Positions 11,161 through 18,074 of a DNA stretch of 24,766 nt are shown piece by piece. Location of the stretch: positions 1-24,766 of IMG/VR virus record IMGVR_UViG_3300029908_000140. The stretch is one strand, 5' to 3'. This DNA comes from a virus. The position numbers were made by a program, and so were the translations under genes. The notes under the pieces are model-generated. The model ran no database searches, had not been told where the DNA came from, and was given only the letters and a program-made list of their open reading frames with translations. Within the stretch, counting starts at the first letter, position 1, and every line of letters begins with the position of its first letter.

Positions 11161-13263
11161 TCAAGTAGCGTGCCACACCTTGGCCCGGCTGTCCGAGACG
11201 GCCGACCGGATCTTCCCCTCGGACTCAAGGGAACCCAAAATCTCATGGCGCTCGCTCGTGCGCAAAAAGCGCGTTTTTCCGATGAGGCGCGAGTGGGTGA
11301 TTGAGCCGGAGCTCTGGATGATCGAGAGCACCCGCATGACGTTCGTCTCTTGCGTGTTCTCCGCCCCCAGCTCGGGCAGTAGCATGGTCGAATTGTGGTA
11401 GGACGCCTTGACGGTCGCAATCGCCCATTCAACGTCCCAGAGGCGAACCAAGGCCCCGTCGAGCGCCCCGTGGATGAGGGCCAGCTTCTGAGCCTGCACT
11501 CCGGCCCGCGTAAGGAAGTGCCTTTCCATCTCGTCCGTGTCTGACAGCGAAATACGCTGCGAGCAGTCAAGATCGTATGCGTCCAAAGCGAGCTGAGCAT
11601 TCTCGTCGATCGGGATGAGAGTCGGCTCAGGTTTTGGCGACATCATGTTTTTCCGGTCGAGTTGGCCGTACTTCTGAAGCTCCGTGAAAAGAGTGATGAG
11701 TTCCGTGGCGCGCGCCTCGTTCCAAATCGACTTCCGAAGCTCTCCATATGCCGAGTCATTGAAGATCAAACACCGAGGGAGAAACCCGCCAGTCACGAAT
11801 TCCTTATTTACCGACCCCTTCAAATTTCCGGGAGTGGTCGACATCAGGGCCGTCACGCATGGATGCCAGACCTGGACTCTTTCACGCCCGACCGAGTCTG
11901 GACCGATGAAAAGCGAACTCGAATCGGTATAAAGCCCGTTTAGGATATCGAGCATGTCCTGTTGAAACACACCGCCGTCCCGGATGACTTTAAAGAGGGA
12001 CGAGCACTCATCGATCAGGTCCAGCCGCTCACGACGTCCGACGAGATCCTTGATCATGGCCGAAGACGAGCGGAAGCCGCCGGAGCCGATGAGGTCGAGC
12101 GAATTTTCGGCCGAAAATAAACGCTTAGCCGTCGTGTAAGGAAATGATTTTCCGGCCCCAGTGGGGGCCACATTTATAACGTAAACATTTGGCCAAGTGT
12201 TTCCGAGCCTAAGCCGATTTCCGATCACGGCCGCGCCAATCGCAATCGCCCCTCCCATCGAAAGAGCGGGCTGCGCGCGGACGGCAAATTCGTTGATTTG
12301 GTCCCTGATTTTTTTAAGACCGCCACGAGGCTCCGGCCATGGCGCTTCCTCGAAGGCTCGCCCGACAGGTGAAAGGAGTGCCGACACGTCAACGAGCTCG
12401 GACCCCGAAATCAGCGGAATGGCTGGAGTCGACTGTGTTTGAATTTGCCGGCGATTATAGGTCTTTGCATTTGAAGCGTAAAAGAAAAGCGCATTGGTCA
12501 CCGGGTCCGCGTGACAGTCAGGTCTCGTCGAATCAGAAAAATATCCGACCGGAAAATGGTTTTCCTCATCGAACCGGAGAAGCTCGCGAACTGCCTCGTC
12601 AGGCGTCACGCTTCTCGCGATCATGGCGTTCGCGATTACTTTCAAGCGGTCGTGCGAACCGGTGGGCGAGCCTCGCTTCGGGTCATCGTTCGTCCATGGG
12701 CCGCCGACGAGGTCGACTCCGGTCGTACCGAACTTACCAGCGGATTCGCCTTGCTCAAGTGCCGTGCGCAGCGATGCCAGGTCTTCCGGTCCAAAGGTAG
12801 GAAGATCGCAAATATCGAAATTCTCAAGCGTATCCGGCGTCTGCCAAAAATATGGTTCGCCAGTCTCGGGGTGCGTTGTAGGAGGGAGGACGGTTTGTTT
12901 CCCGAGCCCCAGAACGTCGATAACGCCCGCTATTTTACAGGACGGCACGCGGGAGTCGTACCGAAAGAACCGTGTCTCCCCCTTTCGTCCGCGCTTGGAC
13001 ACCGGCGAGTAAGGACACGCCGATATAATTTTCGGATCATCCGAATCAATGTCGAGCGCAAGTACGCCGCTCGCCGGGCCGCACGCGAGCCCGTAGCGTT
13101 TCGCCTTCGTCTCTTCCCAGAGGTAGCACTCCTCTTCAGTAGGAAGCCTTACACAGTACTCTTCCCATGCCTCCCCGAACTCGCGCCCCTGAAAATCAGG
13201 CCTTTTCGAGTCATTTTTGATCGGGATGAGCGAAAGACCGCGCTCGCGGTATTTGTTAAACAC
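11161..13263 (-). CDS. Prim-pol primase fused to DUF3987-type helicase-like ATPase
   Basis: A 700-residue replication protein. The N-terminal AEP prim-pol domain (about 1-165) starts MFNKYRERGLSLIPIKNDSK and shows the catalytic ALDIDSDD (69-76), a GRKGETRFFRY segment (92-102) and VLPPTTHPETGEPYFW (125-140), all family features. The C-terminal half (about 310-640) has Walker A APTGAGKS (366-373) and Walker B RLDLIDE (413-419) in a DUF3987-like context, with a helical C-terminal domain. Primer synthesis and DNA unwinding or loading are the expected roles. GTG at 13263 has GGAG 6 nt upstream. It is a single-gene leftward unit whose 3' end points at the AT-rich tract. Confidence 0.88.
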   Translation of the reverse strand: MFNKYRERGLSLIPIKNDSKRPDFQGREFGEAWEEYCVRLPTEEECYLWEETKAKRYGLACGPASGVLALDIDSDDPKIISACPYSPVSKRGRKGETRFFRYDSRVPSCKIAGVIDVLGLGKQTVLPPTTHPETGEPYFWQTPDTLENFDICDLPTFGPEDLASLRTALEQGESAGKFGTTGVDLVGGPWTNDDPKRGSPTGSHDRLKVIANAMIARSVTPDEAVRELLRFDEENHFPVGYFSDSTRPDCHADPVTNALFFYASNAKTYNRRQIQTQSTPAIPLISGSELVDVSALLSPVGRAFEEAPWPEPRGGLKKIRDQINEFAVRAQPALSMGGAIAIGAAVIGNRLRLGNTWPNVYVINVAPTGAGKSFPYTTAKRLFSAENSLDLIGSGGFRSSSAMIKDLVGRRERLDLIDECSSLFKVIRDGGVFQQDMLDILNGLYTDSSSLFIGPDSVGRERVQVWHPCVTALMSTTPGNLKGSVNKEFVTGGFLPRCLIFNDSAYGELRKSIWNEARATELITLFTELQKYGQLDRKNMMSPKPEPTLIPIDENAQLALDAYDLDCSQRISLSDTDEMERHFLTRAGVQAQKLALIHGALDGALVRLWDVEWAIATVKASYHNSTMLLPELGAENTQETNVMRVLSIIQSSGSITHSRLIGKTRFLRTSERHEILGSLESEGKIRSAVSDSRAKVWHAT

Positions 13264-13563: not shown

Positions 13564-14415
13564 ATGAAAGTGAACAACACACGTAACGCAGAAAGCGGCA
13601 CGATTAAAATCGTCGTCGCCGGAGAGCCGGGAAACGGAAAGACGTCGCTCGCGCGGACGATCGAAGCAGGTCTCGGCGAAAAAGTCCTTCTCATCTCCGC
13701 CGAAGCCGGCCTTCTTTCTCTGAAGGGATCGGACGTCGACTTCGTCGAACTCCAAATCGATGACGCAGGAAACGAGGTCCCAAAAGAAAAACGGATCGAG
13801 CGCCTTGGCGAAATTTTCGTCTGGCTAAAAGAGCCGGAGCAGGTGGCCAAGTACAAATGGATCTTCGTGGACTCCCTGACCGAGGTTCAACAGAACCTCC
13901 TCGAGTATCTCGAGACCGTGAAGGACGCGGAAGGAAACCTCGTCTTCGGGGGTCCTAAGAACACTATTAAGAAATACGGCGAGCTCTCGACCCGGATGAT
14001 GGCGCTTGCGAAAATTTTCCGGGACATCGGCCACTATAACGTTGTGTTCTCGGCGCTCGTAAAAACCGAGAAGGACGCCGACGATATCCCGAAAATGAAA
14101 ATCAACCTCATCGGGGCGTTCGCTGACCGTCTTCCGGCACTGTTCGACGAGGTTCTATATCTCGGCGTCACCGAAGAGCAGGATGAGAACGGCGTTCACG
14201 TCCGTAAGATCCTTACTCAGAAAACAAACAAGATCGACTTTCCGAAAGACCGATCGGGCAAGCTCTCTACGCTTGAGCCTGCGGACCTTTCGGTCATCGT
14301 CAAAAAGATTCGCGGAAGCACTGCGCTCATCGCGGATATTTCTGCCAAGGCCAAAGCGGCTTCGGCGGAAGCTAAATCAACCAAAGCAGAACAAACGGCA
14401 CAACAGGGAGCATGA
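13564..14415 (+). CDS. Sak4-like RecA-fold ATPase (single-strand annealing)
   Basis: A 283-residue ATPase with Walker A AGEPGNGKTSLA (19-30), Walker B KWIFVDSL (98-105) and a RecA-like core (ISAEAGLLSLKGSDVDFVEL). It fits the phage Sak4/AAA_24 group, which assists single-strand annealing recombination together with SSB. The end (about 255-283) is a Lys/Ala-rich flexible tail. ATG at 13564 has AAGGGG 7 nt upstream. The next gene, a DUF669 protein, overlaps by ATGA; the Sak4-SSB pairing is common and supports both calls. A YqaJ-like exonuclease lies 4 kb downstream as possible partner. Confidence 0.85.
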   Translation: MKVNNTRNAESGTIKIVVAGEPGNGKTSLARTIEAGLGEKVLLISAEAGLLSLKGSDVDFVELQIDDAGNEVPKEKRIERLGEIFVWLKEPEQVAKYKWIFVDSLTEVQQNLLEYLETVKDAEGNLVFGGPKNTIKKYGELSTRMMALAKIFRDIGHYNVVFSALVKTEKDADDIPKMKINLIGAFADRLPALFDEVLYLGVTEEQDENGVHVRKILTQKTNKIDFPKDRSGKLSTLEPADLSVIVKKIRGSTALIADISAKAKAASAEAKSTKAEQTAQQGA

Positions 14416-14885
14416 CAATGGGTCTCAATTTAAATCTCGAAGGCGTACAAGAAAACTCTCCGATTCCAGACGGAGTGTATCCAGTCATCCTGAACTCGGC
14501 AGAGGTCGCACCGACCAAGGCCGGCGGTTCGATGATTAAGGTTCAACTGAAAATCCAGGAAGGTGCCCCGCACGCGGGTCGCGTTCTGTTTGATCAGTTC
14601 AATATCGAAAACGCGAATCCGAAAGCTGCCCAAATCGGGCTTGGTCAGCTCAAGACGATGATGAAAGCTTTCGGCCACAAGAATCCGAACATGCTGAAAT
14701 CGTCTGAAGAGCTCATCGGCTTGAAAGGAATCGTCGCGGTAAAAGTCGTCGATGACGGCGGATCGTACGGACCACAAACGCGCGTGCGCGCGTATAAGCC
14801 TCTGGCTGCAAGCGAAGGCGGTGGGTTCGCCCCTACCACTGCGCCGGCAACCGGAACGGCAGCTAAAACAAATCCCTTCGGTTAA
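14412..14885 (+). CDS. DUF669-type single-stranded DNA-binding protein candidate
   Basis: A 157-residue protein. IPDGVYPVILNSAEVAPTKA, then GGSMIKVQLKIQEG and FNIENANPKAAQIGLGQLKT match the DUF669 pattern, a family found beside phage recombinases and thought to serve as SSB. A segment ELIGLKGIVAVKVVDDGG follows, then a low-complexity Ala/Thr/Gly linker and the end KTNPFG. The end lacks the acidic DDIPF-type tip; strikingly that tip is on the helicase at 15865. ATG at 14412 overlaps the Sak4 stop (ATGA); ATG at 14418 is an alternative. Confidence 0.82.
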   Translation: MTMGLNLNLEGVQENSPIPDGVYPVILNSAEVAPTKAGGSMIKVQLKIQEGAPHAGRVLFDQFNIENANPKAAQIGLGQLKTMMKAFGHKNPNMLKSSEELIGLKGIVAVKVVDDGGSYGPQTRVRAYKPLAASEGGGFAPTTAPATGTAAKTNPFG

Positions 14886-15451: not shown

Positions 15452-15463
15452 GTGCGAACTGAT

Positions 15464-15868
15464 ATGAGAAAATTAAAAACACCAAGGACCCCGCTTGGGC
15501 CGTTCGAGACCGACGATTACGGCCCCTACTTTGAAATCCCCCTTACACAGGGGATGCACGCGAAGGTTTCTCCCGAAGACGCTCCTATTATCGGCGCTCA
15601 CTGTTGGTACGCGTCCCACGAGTCGCGTAGGACTAAGTTCTACGCCGTCCGCTGGACGACGATGAACGGCAAGCGCGTGAAGCTCCGGATGCACCGAGAA
15701 ATCATGGGGCTTCCCACCGGCGATATCGACTCGCTCGTGGTGGACCATCTGCCGCCTCATCACGATAGTCTCGACAATCGGCGCTCCCGTCTTGAGGTCA
15801 TCACACAGGACGAGAACATGCGTCGCTCGAAGGGATGGAAAAAGAAGCCAGAGGAGCCGTCGCTATGA
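15464..15868 (+). CDS. HNH endonuclease (homing-type, AP2/HNH-like)
   Basis: A 134-residue protein with the layout of stand-alone phage HNH enzymes: a strand-rich start (YFEIPLTQGMHAKVSPEDAP), a Trp/Tyr-containing segment (HCWYASHESRRTKFYAVRW), an MHREIMG helix, then VVDHLPPHHDSLDNRRSRLE (catalytic His in VDH, Asn in DNRR) and ITQDENMRRS. Such enzymes often act as free-standing homing nucleases. A GTG at 15452 would add four residues; neither start has a strong ribosome-binding site. The helicase gene overlaps its end by ATGA. Confidence 0.82.
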   Translation: MRKLKTPRTPLGPFETDDYGPYFEIPLTQGMHAKVSPEDAPIIGAHCWYASHESRRTKFYAVRWTTMNGKRVKLRMHREIMGLPTGDIDSLVVDHLPPHHDSLDNRRSRLEVITQDENMRRSKGWKKKPEEPSL

Positions 15869-17508
15869 GTGAACTCGTCGCGCGCCCTTACCAGCTTGAA
15901 CTCGTCGACTCCGTGTGGACGGAGCTTTTCACCGAATCGGTTGCCCTCGCGCAGCTCCCCACCGGCGGCGGTAAGACCTTTTGCTTTTCTCTTCTCATCA
16001 AAAAGGCGCTTGAGATTCCAGGCGTTCGCGTTGGCGTCGTGATGGGGCGCGTGGACCTCGTTAAACAGACAGAGAGAGCCATCGCCCGTGTAATTCCAAG
16101 AAAAGATATTGGCATTTACTGTGGCAGCATGAACCGAAAAGAGGTCAGGAGACCCGTCACAATCGCGTCGATTCAATCGATTCGTGACATCAAGGATCTT
16201 TTTTTCAACCTCCTCATCATCGATGAGGCTCACAACTTTGACCAAAACAAAGGCGGCTATTTAGAGTTCATCGACTCGGCTAGGCTCACAAACCCAAAGG
16301 TCAAAATCGTAGGGTGGACTGCGACTCCGTTCCGCTCCGACGGCCGCATTTACGGGAAGGGAAGTTTTTTTCCTAGGCTCTGTTATCAGAAAACGATTCA
16401 AGACATGATCGCTCTCGGCTTTCTTTGCCGCCCTATTTTAAAGCAGGGCGACAACTCATTCGACACGTCTCTACTGCGCGTACGTGCGGGCGAGTACCGT
16501 CAGGAAGACGTTGATAAACTTGTTTCGGATGAAAGCACGCTTGAGCTCCAGGTGAAAGACGCGCTCGAAAAAATGAAGGGCCGCACCTGCGTGGCCTGGG
16601 CGACTGCCAACATTGACCACTGCAACCGAGTCTTGGACGAGCTCCAGGCAAGAGGCGAATATGCGACTTCGGTCCACTCGAAACAAAACAAAGAAACTCG
16701 AAATACGAATCTCTCTGCATTCATGGGCGGCGGTCCTCGCCACATGGTATTCGTCTCAATTCTTTCCGAAGGGTTCGATCATCCCCCTATTGATTGCGTT
16801 GTGCTCATGCGCCCTACTCGTTCCCCTGTCTTATATATTCAGACGGTTGGTCGAGGTCTTAGAATTGCGAATGAGAAAAACAACTGTCTCGTACTCGACT
16901 ACGGGCAGGTCGTACGATTACTCGGCCCGCTTGATGAGCCGAACATCAAAGGATCAAAGCGAGAAGTCGACTCCTCTAAAGGAGAAGCCGTTCTAAAACT
17001 TTGCGACACGTGCCAAACCTGGGTTCCTGGCGGATGCAAAGAGTGCCCGGAGTGCAGCGCTCCGTTTCCGATCCTTCCACCCGAAGAGAAGCTCGATAGA
17101 GCGCCTGAGGTTGAAGCCAAAATTCTGTCGGAGAAGACAAAGCCCGTTACCGAGCACCTTGGCCCAGCCTATATCGGCATGCACGAATCGAAATCAGGAA
17201 ATCAATGTATCCGGATCACGTACCGCGACGGCAACATGCTGAGCCGCTGGGGCGGATACTTCGGGACGAGCGAGTACTTCGTCGTGACGTCAACGTGGGC
17301 CATGGAGCGCCTTGAGCGCCGCCTAACCGACATCGACGCGGATTTGCCAGGCATTCCATTCGACGAAGAGATCAAGGTCCCAGGCACGTTTGAAGTCACC
17401 AAGACAAAGGACGGGAAATATGATCGAATCATTTCAGTAAAAAAAGTTTCAAGCTCCGCCCCTCAACCGGATCAACTTGATTTCACCGAAGACGACATTC
17501 CATTTTGA
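15865..17508 (+). CDS. SF2 DEAD/H-box helicase with zinc cluster and SSB-like tail
   Basis: A 547-residue helicase. LPTGGGKT (31-38) is motif I, IIDEAH (118-123) motif II, GWTATP (150-155) motif III, SEGFDHP (301-307) motif V and QTVGRGLR (326-333) motif VI. C380, C383, C391, C394 and C397 form a zinc cluster. An extra domain follows (about 430-530), and the end is LDFTEDDIPF, nearly the acidic tip of bacterial SSB (DFDDDIPF). Start ATG at 15865 overlaps the HNH stop and has GAGGAG 8 nt upstream; an in-frame ATG at 15835 is less likely. Probable roles are fork remodelling or recombination. Confidence 0.9.
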   Translation: MSELVARPYQLELVDSVWTELFTESVALAQLPTGGGKTFCFSLLIKKALEIPGVRVGVVMGRVDLVKQTERAIARVIPRKDIGIYCGSMNRKEVRRPVTIASIQSIRDIKDLFFNLLIIDEAHNFDQNKGGYLEFIDSARLTNPKVKIVGWTATPFRSDGRIYGKGSFFPRLCYQKTIQDMIALGFLCRPILKQGDNSFDTSLLRVRAGEYRQEDVDKLVSDESTLELQVKDALEKMKGRTCVAWATANIDHCNRVLDELQARGEYATSVHSKQNKETRNTNLSAFMGGGPRHMVFVSILSEGFDHPPIDCVVLMRPTRSPVLYIQTVGRGLRIANEKNNCLVLDYGQVVRLLGPLDEPNIKGSKREVDSSKGEAVLKLCDTCQTWVPGGCKECPECSAPFPILPPEEKLDRAPEVEAKILSEKTKPVTEHLGPAYIGMHESKSGNQCIRITYRDGNMLSRWGGYFGTSEYFVVTSTWAMERLERRLTDIDADLPGIPFDEEIKVPGTFEVTKTKDGKYDRIISVKKVSSSAPQPDQLDFTEDDIPF

Positions 17509-17519
17509 AAGGGAAAAAT

Positions 17520-18074
17520 ATGGCTAGACATCTGAACGCACCGCTCTCTTCTTTTATCACTGCGAGAATCCCAATCGCTCCGGACGCGAACACCGATCCG
17601 ACCATGCTCTTCAAAATGGCGATGGTCGCCCTCGAAGCAATCACGTCGGTCGGCGGAAACGATACCGGAGTTCTCGTAAACGACATCCAGGACACCGTTC
17701 AACTCGTCCCCGGAGAGTCGTGGTGCATGGCCACCGTACAAAGCGCGCTTCGGTACGTCGAACTCATCACGGGTAAAATATCGGCTATCGCGGCGGGCGG
17801 TCTCTGTACCGCTGTATTTGCTCAGAGCGTGCCTAACCAAGTGACGACTCCGCAAGTGGGAGACATCATCGTGTTTCAGCACGGGGCCGGCCCGTCTGGG
17901 CACACTGAAATTGTCACTGGGCTCGGTGACGGCACGTTCGTATTCGCCGCTGGCGGAAACACGACGCCAGGCGCGGGATACACCGGCGCTGCGGGCGTAT
18001 TCCACAAAATGCGCACGACAACCGCACCGATCGGCGACATGACGATTCTTGGATTCCTGCGGCCGTACCTATGA
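17520..18074 (+). CDS. CHAP/NlpC-P60-like peptidoglycan hydrolase (endolysin candidate)
   Basis: A 184-residue protein. GESWCMATVQSALRYV (65-80) places the likely nucleophile C69 at the start of a helix, TPQVGDIIVFQ (110-120) is the CHAP strand pattern, and GHTEIVTG (127-134) supplies H128; GGNTTPG (145-151) could carry the third residue. A Cys peptidase that cuts the peptide stems of the cell wall is the expected activity. There is no signal peptide, so release would need a holin. ATG at 17520 has AAAGGG about 6 nt upstream. It lies inside the replication module, unusual for a lysin, and overlaps the next gene. Confidence 0.75.
   Translation: MARHLNAPLSSFITARIPIAPDANTDPTMLFKMAMVALEAITSVGGNDTGVLVNDIQDTVQLVPGESWCMATVQSALRYVELITGKISAIAAGGLCTAVFAQSVPNQVTTPQVGDIIVFQHGAGPSGHTEIVTGLGDGTFVFAAGGNTTPGAGYTGAAGVFHKMRTTTAPIGDMTILGFLRPYL

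Follow-up and report, generated by a model that had tools for sequence, protein, structure and literature searches.

Bacterial DNA metabolism has its central docking hub in the acidic C-terminal tip of SSB proteins (SSB-Ct). Proteins that bind the SSB-Ct hexapeptide are established (PMC10238739), among them the helicase RadD of E. coli, which does so with an apparent KD of 5.4 uM through Arg21, Arg49, Arg145 and a hydrophobic pocket; this pocket lies on the first RecA-like domain, and SSB-Ct stimulates the RadD ATPase (PMC10238739). RadD has two zinc fingers and a C-terminal domain (CTD) that has been called unique (PMC9049331). Tails of related or analogous kinds have been described in phages: in HK620 the tail NDYPPF of the DUF669 SSB is required for binding and stimulation of Sak4 (PMC5928155), and in T7 the acidic C-terminal tail of the gp4 helicase-primase docks on a basic patch of the T7 DNA polymerase (PMC5997990).

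Here we analyse a stretch of viral DNA of 24,766 nucleotides (IMG/VR record IMGVR_UViG_3300029908_000140, positions 1 to 24,766; hereafter "the window") in which a tip of the SSB-Ct type terminates a RadD-like helicase, and we follow this tip through the corresponding loci of related phages. The SSB tip itself is already known; in a search of the literature outside subscription papers, no report emerged of such a tip on RadD-like helicases or clamps of phages, or on the small Cys4 protein, in combination with a phage SSB that lacks it.

A RadD-like helicase and its gene neighbourhood

The 547-aa protein that bears the tip contains the Pfam domains ResIII, DEAD and Helicase_C, matches phrog_16 (DNA helicase, E 4.6e-79) in PHROGs, and has the Walker A sequence PTGGGKT and the DEAH box IIDEAH of an SF2 motor. 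Its best match in the PDB is E. coli RadD (6jde, E 9.8e-32), the next protein following at 6e-11 (phmmer). An AlphaFold2 (AF2) model built from a 62-sequence alignment (mean pLDDT 83.3) shows two RecA-like domains, one Cys4 element and a beta-rich CTD, in that order, with a final strand at residues 519-529. When the whole helicase model was used as query, all eight best Foldseek matches were RadD chains, and VIA structural alignment gave a Z of 36 for RadD and 28 for the next entry. The VIA alignment to RadD chains reaches model residues 529-531, and its high rmsd indicates that domain orientation differs. The segment ahead of the tip had been described from sequence alone as OB-like, a description that finds no support here: it corresponds to the last strands of a RadD-type CTD in the AF2 model, RadD being the closest fold.

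Judged by its sequence, the protein is RadD-like, yet not a full RadD. A RadD orthologue would have two Cys4 zinc fingers, and the window helicase has a single invariant Cys4 set; of the three arginines of the SSB pocket (21, 49 and 145), two have been replaced, the aligned residues being Phe22, Gly53 and Lys147, with only one of these three positions basic. A single-sequence scan of viral contigs with this helicase retrieved two contigs only, encoding an identical protein, and was insufficient to reach further viral homologues, for which profiles were needed.

The surrounding genes (Table 1) include a Sak4-like annealing protein and a DUF669 SSB, which flank the helicase both in the window and in most loci with tipped helicases. 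Within the portions of the phage genomes covered by these loci, phmmer with E. coli SSB found no classical OB-fold SSB. An HNH gene also precedes the helicase in the gene order of phage CRP-902. Directly after the helicase lies a CHAP-domain lysis-type gene (17505-18074), at a position that is occupied in relatives by a clamp, Cys4 or VRR-nuclease gene, and close to the helicase is a gene for a dATP/dGTP diphosphohydrolase (PF18909; 18071-18409).

Table 1. Coordinates of the helicase, its parts and neighbouring genes in the window
Feature	Position	Strand	Basis
RadD-like SF2 helicase, tip carrier, 547 aa	15865..17508	+	Pfam, PHROGs, PDB, Foldseek
Single Cys4 zinc-finger-like element, Cys380, 383, 394, 397	17002..17055	+	4/4 Cys invariant, 62-sequence alignment
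Helicase CTD, residues 428-529, beta-rich, RadD-type	17146..17451	+	AF2 secondary structure
Short linker preceding tip, predicted disordered, about residues 530-537	17452..17475	+	AF2; hypervariable linker in tipped homologues
SSB-Ct-like tip LDFTEDDIPF, residues 538-547	17476..17505	+	Same tip type in 81/183 non-redundant homologues
HNH-like gene overlapping helicase start	15452..15868	+	phrog_99, E 1.6e-7
DUF669 phage SSB, tail KTNPFG, no acidic tip	14412..14885	+	Pfam DUF669, E 2.7e-11; phrog_6015 single strand DNA binding protein
Sak4-like single-strand annealing ATPase, same operon	13564..14415	+	phrog_124 Sak4-like ssDNA annealing protein, E 2.6e-41
Primase-polymerase/helicase-like replication protein, same module	11161..13263	-	Pfam Prim-Pol and DUF3987; phrog_3022 DNA primase

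An SSB-like tip on a linker predicted to be disordered

Translation of the helicase ORF ends in SSSAPQPDQLDFTEDDIPF before the stop (also given as QPDQLDFTEDDIPF), and the codons GACGACATTCCATTTTGA at 17491-17508 encode DDIPF-stop. The window contains a single match to a degenerate DDIPF-stop pattern, and 100 shuffles contain none. The sequence-only reading had noted that the helicase ends in a near-copy of the SSB acidic tip, and the comparison bears this out: LDFTEDDIPF stands against MDFDDDIPF at the C-terminus of E. coli SSB (EPPMDFDDDIPF, strain MG1655). The TEDDIPF-stop ending has the form typical of SSB-Ct, a run of acidic residues followed by I/V/L-P-F at the extreme end of the protein.

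Residues 534-547 have pLDDT values below 50 in the AF2 model, from which we infer a tail that is disordered and not buried; this rules against the burial of the tail in the predicted fold that had been raised as a possible objection. In the related helicase of locus L012, the last 18 residues average a pLDDT of about 50. A free, variable linker ahead of a conserved tip, a further hallmark of SSB-Ct, is evident both from these pLDDT values and from the identities between pairs of homologues given below.

The SSB candidate beginning at 14412 had been read as ending in NPFG, and is indeed a DUF669 protein with the ending KTNPFG. The contrast drawn earlier between a tipped helicase and a tipless SSB is correct and proves to be general: a P(x)W/F tail (e.g. 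TPPWKR) is present in 129 of the 141 DUF669 proteins, and the mean net charge of the last eight residues is +1.1 for DUF669 tails and -3.1 for helicase tips. These basic-aromatic tails (TPPWKR, PPWARR, APWNKKG), with a charge inverted relative to bacterial SSB, are a candidate second docking tail.

Conservation of the tip among phage helicases

To score the tip we required a terminal [ILVMA]P[FWY] and two or more D/E among the nine C-terminal residues. By this definition 50 of 75 complete helicases were tipped in the first profile scan. Four viral scans and a set of named phages were then pooled, with near-duplicates removed, into 183 non-redundant loci, 81 of which carry the tip on the helicase; each scan contributed the best 80 matches per query and the first query was itself tipped, and the proportion is not a population frequency. 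Whether homologues keep DDIPF had been put forward as a check, and the tip does recur at about 30% identity. Named relatives that have it, at about 25-35% identity, include Roseobacter phage CRP-902 (VDFSFEDIPF), Acinetobacter HD01 (GEDDLPF), Moraxella Mcat24 (MIDDMPF), Stenotrophomonas BUCT627 (TYEDDDIPF), Pseudomonas PAJD-1 (DLDDDIPF), Escherichia Greed, a Seuratvirus (VDDPDYVPF), and Rhizobium RHph_X2_25 (ELEDDVPF). In four helicases (L013, L019, L045 and L049) IPW replaces IPF.

The tip and the residues before it have diverged very differently. In 950 pairs of tipped helicases, whose motors are 50-85% identical (mean 65%), identity is 66% over the final six residues and 9% over the twenty before these. 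Because the pairs were selected by the tip, the figure is in part circular for the final three residues; positions -4 to -6 are likewise strongly D/E. This difference points to a selected tip borne on a free linker. Beyond the last CTD strand, tipped helicases continue into an additional long linker (median 47 residues), and tipless ones terminate with the fold itself (median 5).

The tip is scarce in control families encoded in the same loci: Sak4 (0/136), Cas4 (2/125) and DUF669 (1/141). Among 2983 other ORFs of at least 100 aa in the first-scan loci, 13 were tipped; 11 of these proved to be seed-locus helicases or downstream neighbour carriers, and the remaining two were upstream genes, one of them a Cas4 exonuclease. 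None of 80 cellular RadD proteins in a gammaproteobacterial sample (Enterobacterales or Aeromonas only) has the tip.

Alternative carriers of the tip in related phages

Where the helicase is tipless, the tip is often found on a neighbouring gene of the same operon: a Cys4 gene (31 loci), a clamp of phrog_947 (11), a DUF6511 gene (4), Cas4 (2) or DUF669 (2). Over the 183 loci, 128 have one carrier, three have two and 52 have none, the last figure being that of the family search and including several loci with near-tips (ECPF, VIPF, DPPF), with carriers which that search missed (L011, L071, L127, L143 and L273) or with short flanks. Helicase and neighbour both carry a tip in three loci, against 23.5 expected under independence.

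The Cys4 carrier is a protein of 62-126 residues with four cysteines (phrog_23504), and in most loci its gene begins at the stop of the helicase gene or close to it. It adjoins none of the 81 tipped helicases and 39 of the 102 tipless ones. Examples downstream of tipless helicases are L099:4685-4894, L103:4637-4894 and L010:5586-5951, and nearly all are tipped. At one locus (L014:4437-6677) the helicase is fused to a Cys4 domain (domain E 5e-6) with the tip at the end of the fusion, which suggests a functional link between the two genes.

The clamp carriers of phrog_947 comprise 386-405 residues, and the 387-aa clamp of Pseudomonas phage HMGUpa1 gives an E of 1e-75. Clamps are tipped in none of 13 loci that have the tip on the helicase or the Cys4 protein, and in 11 of 19 loci without it there. 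Clamp genes with a C-terminal extension ending in DDDIPF occur in L112, L114, L205, L215, L219, L223, L226, L231, L241 and L246, and in L096 (L096:4655-5818). Further carriers are DUF6511 proteins, the Cas4 exonuclease of L022, and the DUF669 SSB of Streptococcus phage Javan7, which ends in EEDDLPF.

On the tree the helicase tip changes at least 13 times. Fisher values for the exclusivity of carriers are 4e-12 and 6e-4, but these treat related phages as independent, are inflated because of shared ancestry, and are not to be read as significance; matched-pair tests on independent pairs, and on the clamp against other carriers, had too few informative pairs and did not reach significance.

Proposed role of the tip and alternative readings

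We propose, with confidence that stands evenly balanced, that the helicase recruits host SSB-interacting proteins by means of a predicted docking tip on a short flexible linker, one of the two roles that the sequence-only reading had suggested. The phage would coat its ssDNA with a DUF669 SSB of its own. The tail of this SSB differs in kind (NPFG in the window, PPWKR-like in relatives) and should for that reason not attract host SSB-interacting proteins. The helicase would work on the same DNA, beside DUF669 and Sak4, and would expose its acidic end to those host proteins that have an SSB-Ct pocket, for example PriA, RecO, RecQ, RecG, Exo I, DnaG or the chi subunit, and so draw them to the forks or recombination intermediates of the phage. 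A tip on the sliding clamp, on the small Cys4 protein, on a DUF6511 protein, on a Cas4 nuclease or on the SSB may fulfil this function in related phages. The P(x)W/F tail of DUF669 may serve Sak4, leaving the acidic tip for others.

Extended to the group as a whole, the proposal is a tentative one, held at a little under even confidence: in a large group of tailed phages the hub function of SSB may have been separated from SSB itself, such that the SSB lost its acidic tip, each replication-recombination operon usually keeps one selected tip on a carrier that switches (helicase, sliding clamp, Cys4 protein, DUF6511, Cas4 or SSB), and it is not the ssDNA coat but another component that recruits host SSB-interacting proteins. 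If true, the hub has been split from SSB and moved among parts of the replisome, making the tip a transferable recruiting tag, and the tip would provide a sequence-level way to find phage proteins that tether host repair and replication enzymes. Two further items emerge from the survey: phrog_23504, a small Cys4 protein, as a widespread partner that had gone unremarked, and a phage clamp that bears a tip. Laboratory phages exist for each carrier, which makes the question directly testable.

The main rival, in our judgement unlikely, is that the phage helicase is itself the receptor, the tip serving as its own activator by docking within the same chain (in cis) or on an adjacent molecule, and in trans where it is carried by the clamp or the Cys4 protein. 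Cellular RadD is a receptor of the SSB tip, the positions of its hydrophobic pocket are kept along with a basic residue at position 145 (Lys147 in the window), and an arginine occupies the Arg21 equivalent in 37 of 81 tipped helicases as compared with 6 of about 100 tipless ones. This reading is nonetheless weakened because the Arg21 contrast tracks one clade, nearly all phage helicases have lost Arg49, Phe22 and Gly53 stand at these two positions in the window protein, and AF2 does not place the tail in the pocket with confidence, either in the window protein or in the L012 helicase, which retains Arg21. Nor is the basic pocket kept in loci that carry the tip in trans.

Two other readings are possible but less supported. 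By analogy with HK620, where an SSB tail is needed for Sak4 (PMC5928155), the tip might bind a phage protein, most simply the neighbouring Sak4 annealase, whose gene, with that of DUF669, flanks the helicase here and in most tipped loci. We regard this as rather improbable: the DUF669 proteins of the module keep P(x)W/F tails of their own, which are YPPF-like and could serve Sak4, and the HK620 tail has fewer acidic residues and ends in PPF, not IPF. The tip could instead be a decoy that takes partners away from host SSB by competition and thereby blocks repair or defence functions of the host. Since the ligand is the same, such competition is chemically possible and would work from any carrier; but a decoy would presumably be needed in many copies, a helicase, clamp or nuclease would be a costly and scarce way of supplying them, and every carrier found is a replication or recombination protein or lies in an operon of that kind, so that we hold this reading to be quite doubtful. 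Finally, that the tip is a chance or annotation artefact, a random acidic C-terminus, is excluded for practical purposes by its conservation in homologues (81/183 helicases as against 0 to 2% in control families of the same loci) and by its retention across deep divergence behind a hypervariable linker.

Comparison with known systems

The proposed recruiting tip shares with SSB-Ct its place at the extreme C-terminus, the terminal Phe, Pro at -2, Ile/Val at -3, acidic residues at -4 to -6, and a variable, unstructured linker. It differs in standing on an SF2 helicase body and not on an OB-fold ssDNA-binding protein, and in the length of its linker, which in the window is only about eight residues ahead of LDFTEDDIPF.

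E. coli RadD (YejH; 6jde, 7r7j, 8h5y, 8h5z) is the closest solved sequence and fold to the window helicase, with which it shares two RecA-like domains, a zinc element and a CTD. RadD, however, is a receptor of the tip and lacks a tip of its own (as do all 80 cellular RadDs from Enterobacterales and Aeromonas), and it has two zinc fingers (PMC9049331), in contrast to the one Cys4 set of the window protein, from which two of the three pocket arginines are missing.

HK620 resembles the window in that Sak4 adjoins a DUF669 SSB and an SSB-Ct-like tail matters (PMC5928155). The tail NDYPPF is there on the SSB, whereas in the window the helicase is tipped and the SSB is without an acidic tip. The gp4 protein of T7 belongs to an unrelated helicase family, its partner is a phage polymerase, and its tail is not the conserved bacterial DDIPF tip; as a phage helicase with an acidic C-terminal docking tail, it is nevertheless the nearest precedent (PMC5997990) for the arrangement described here.
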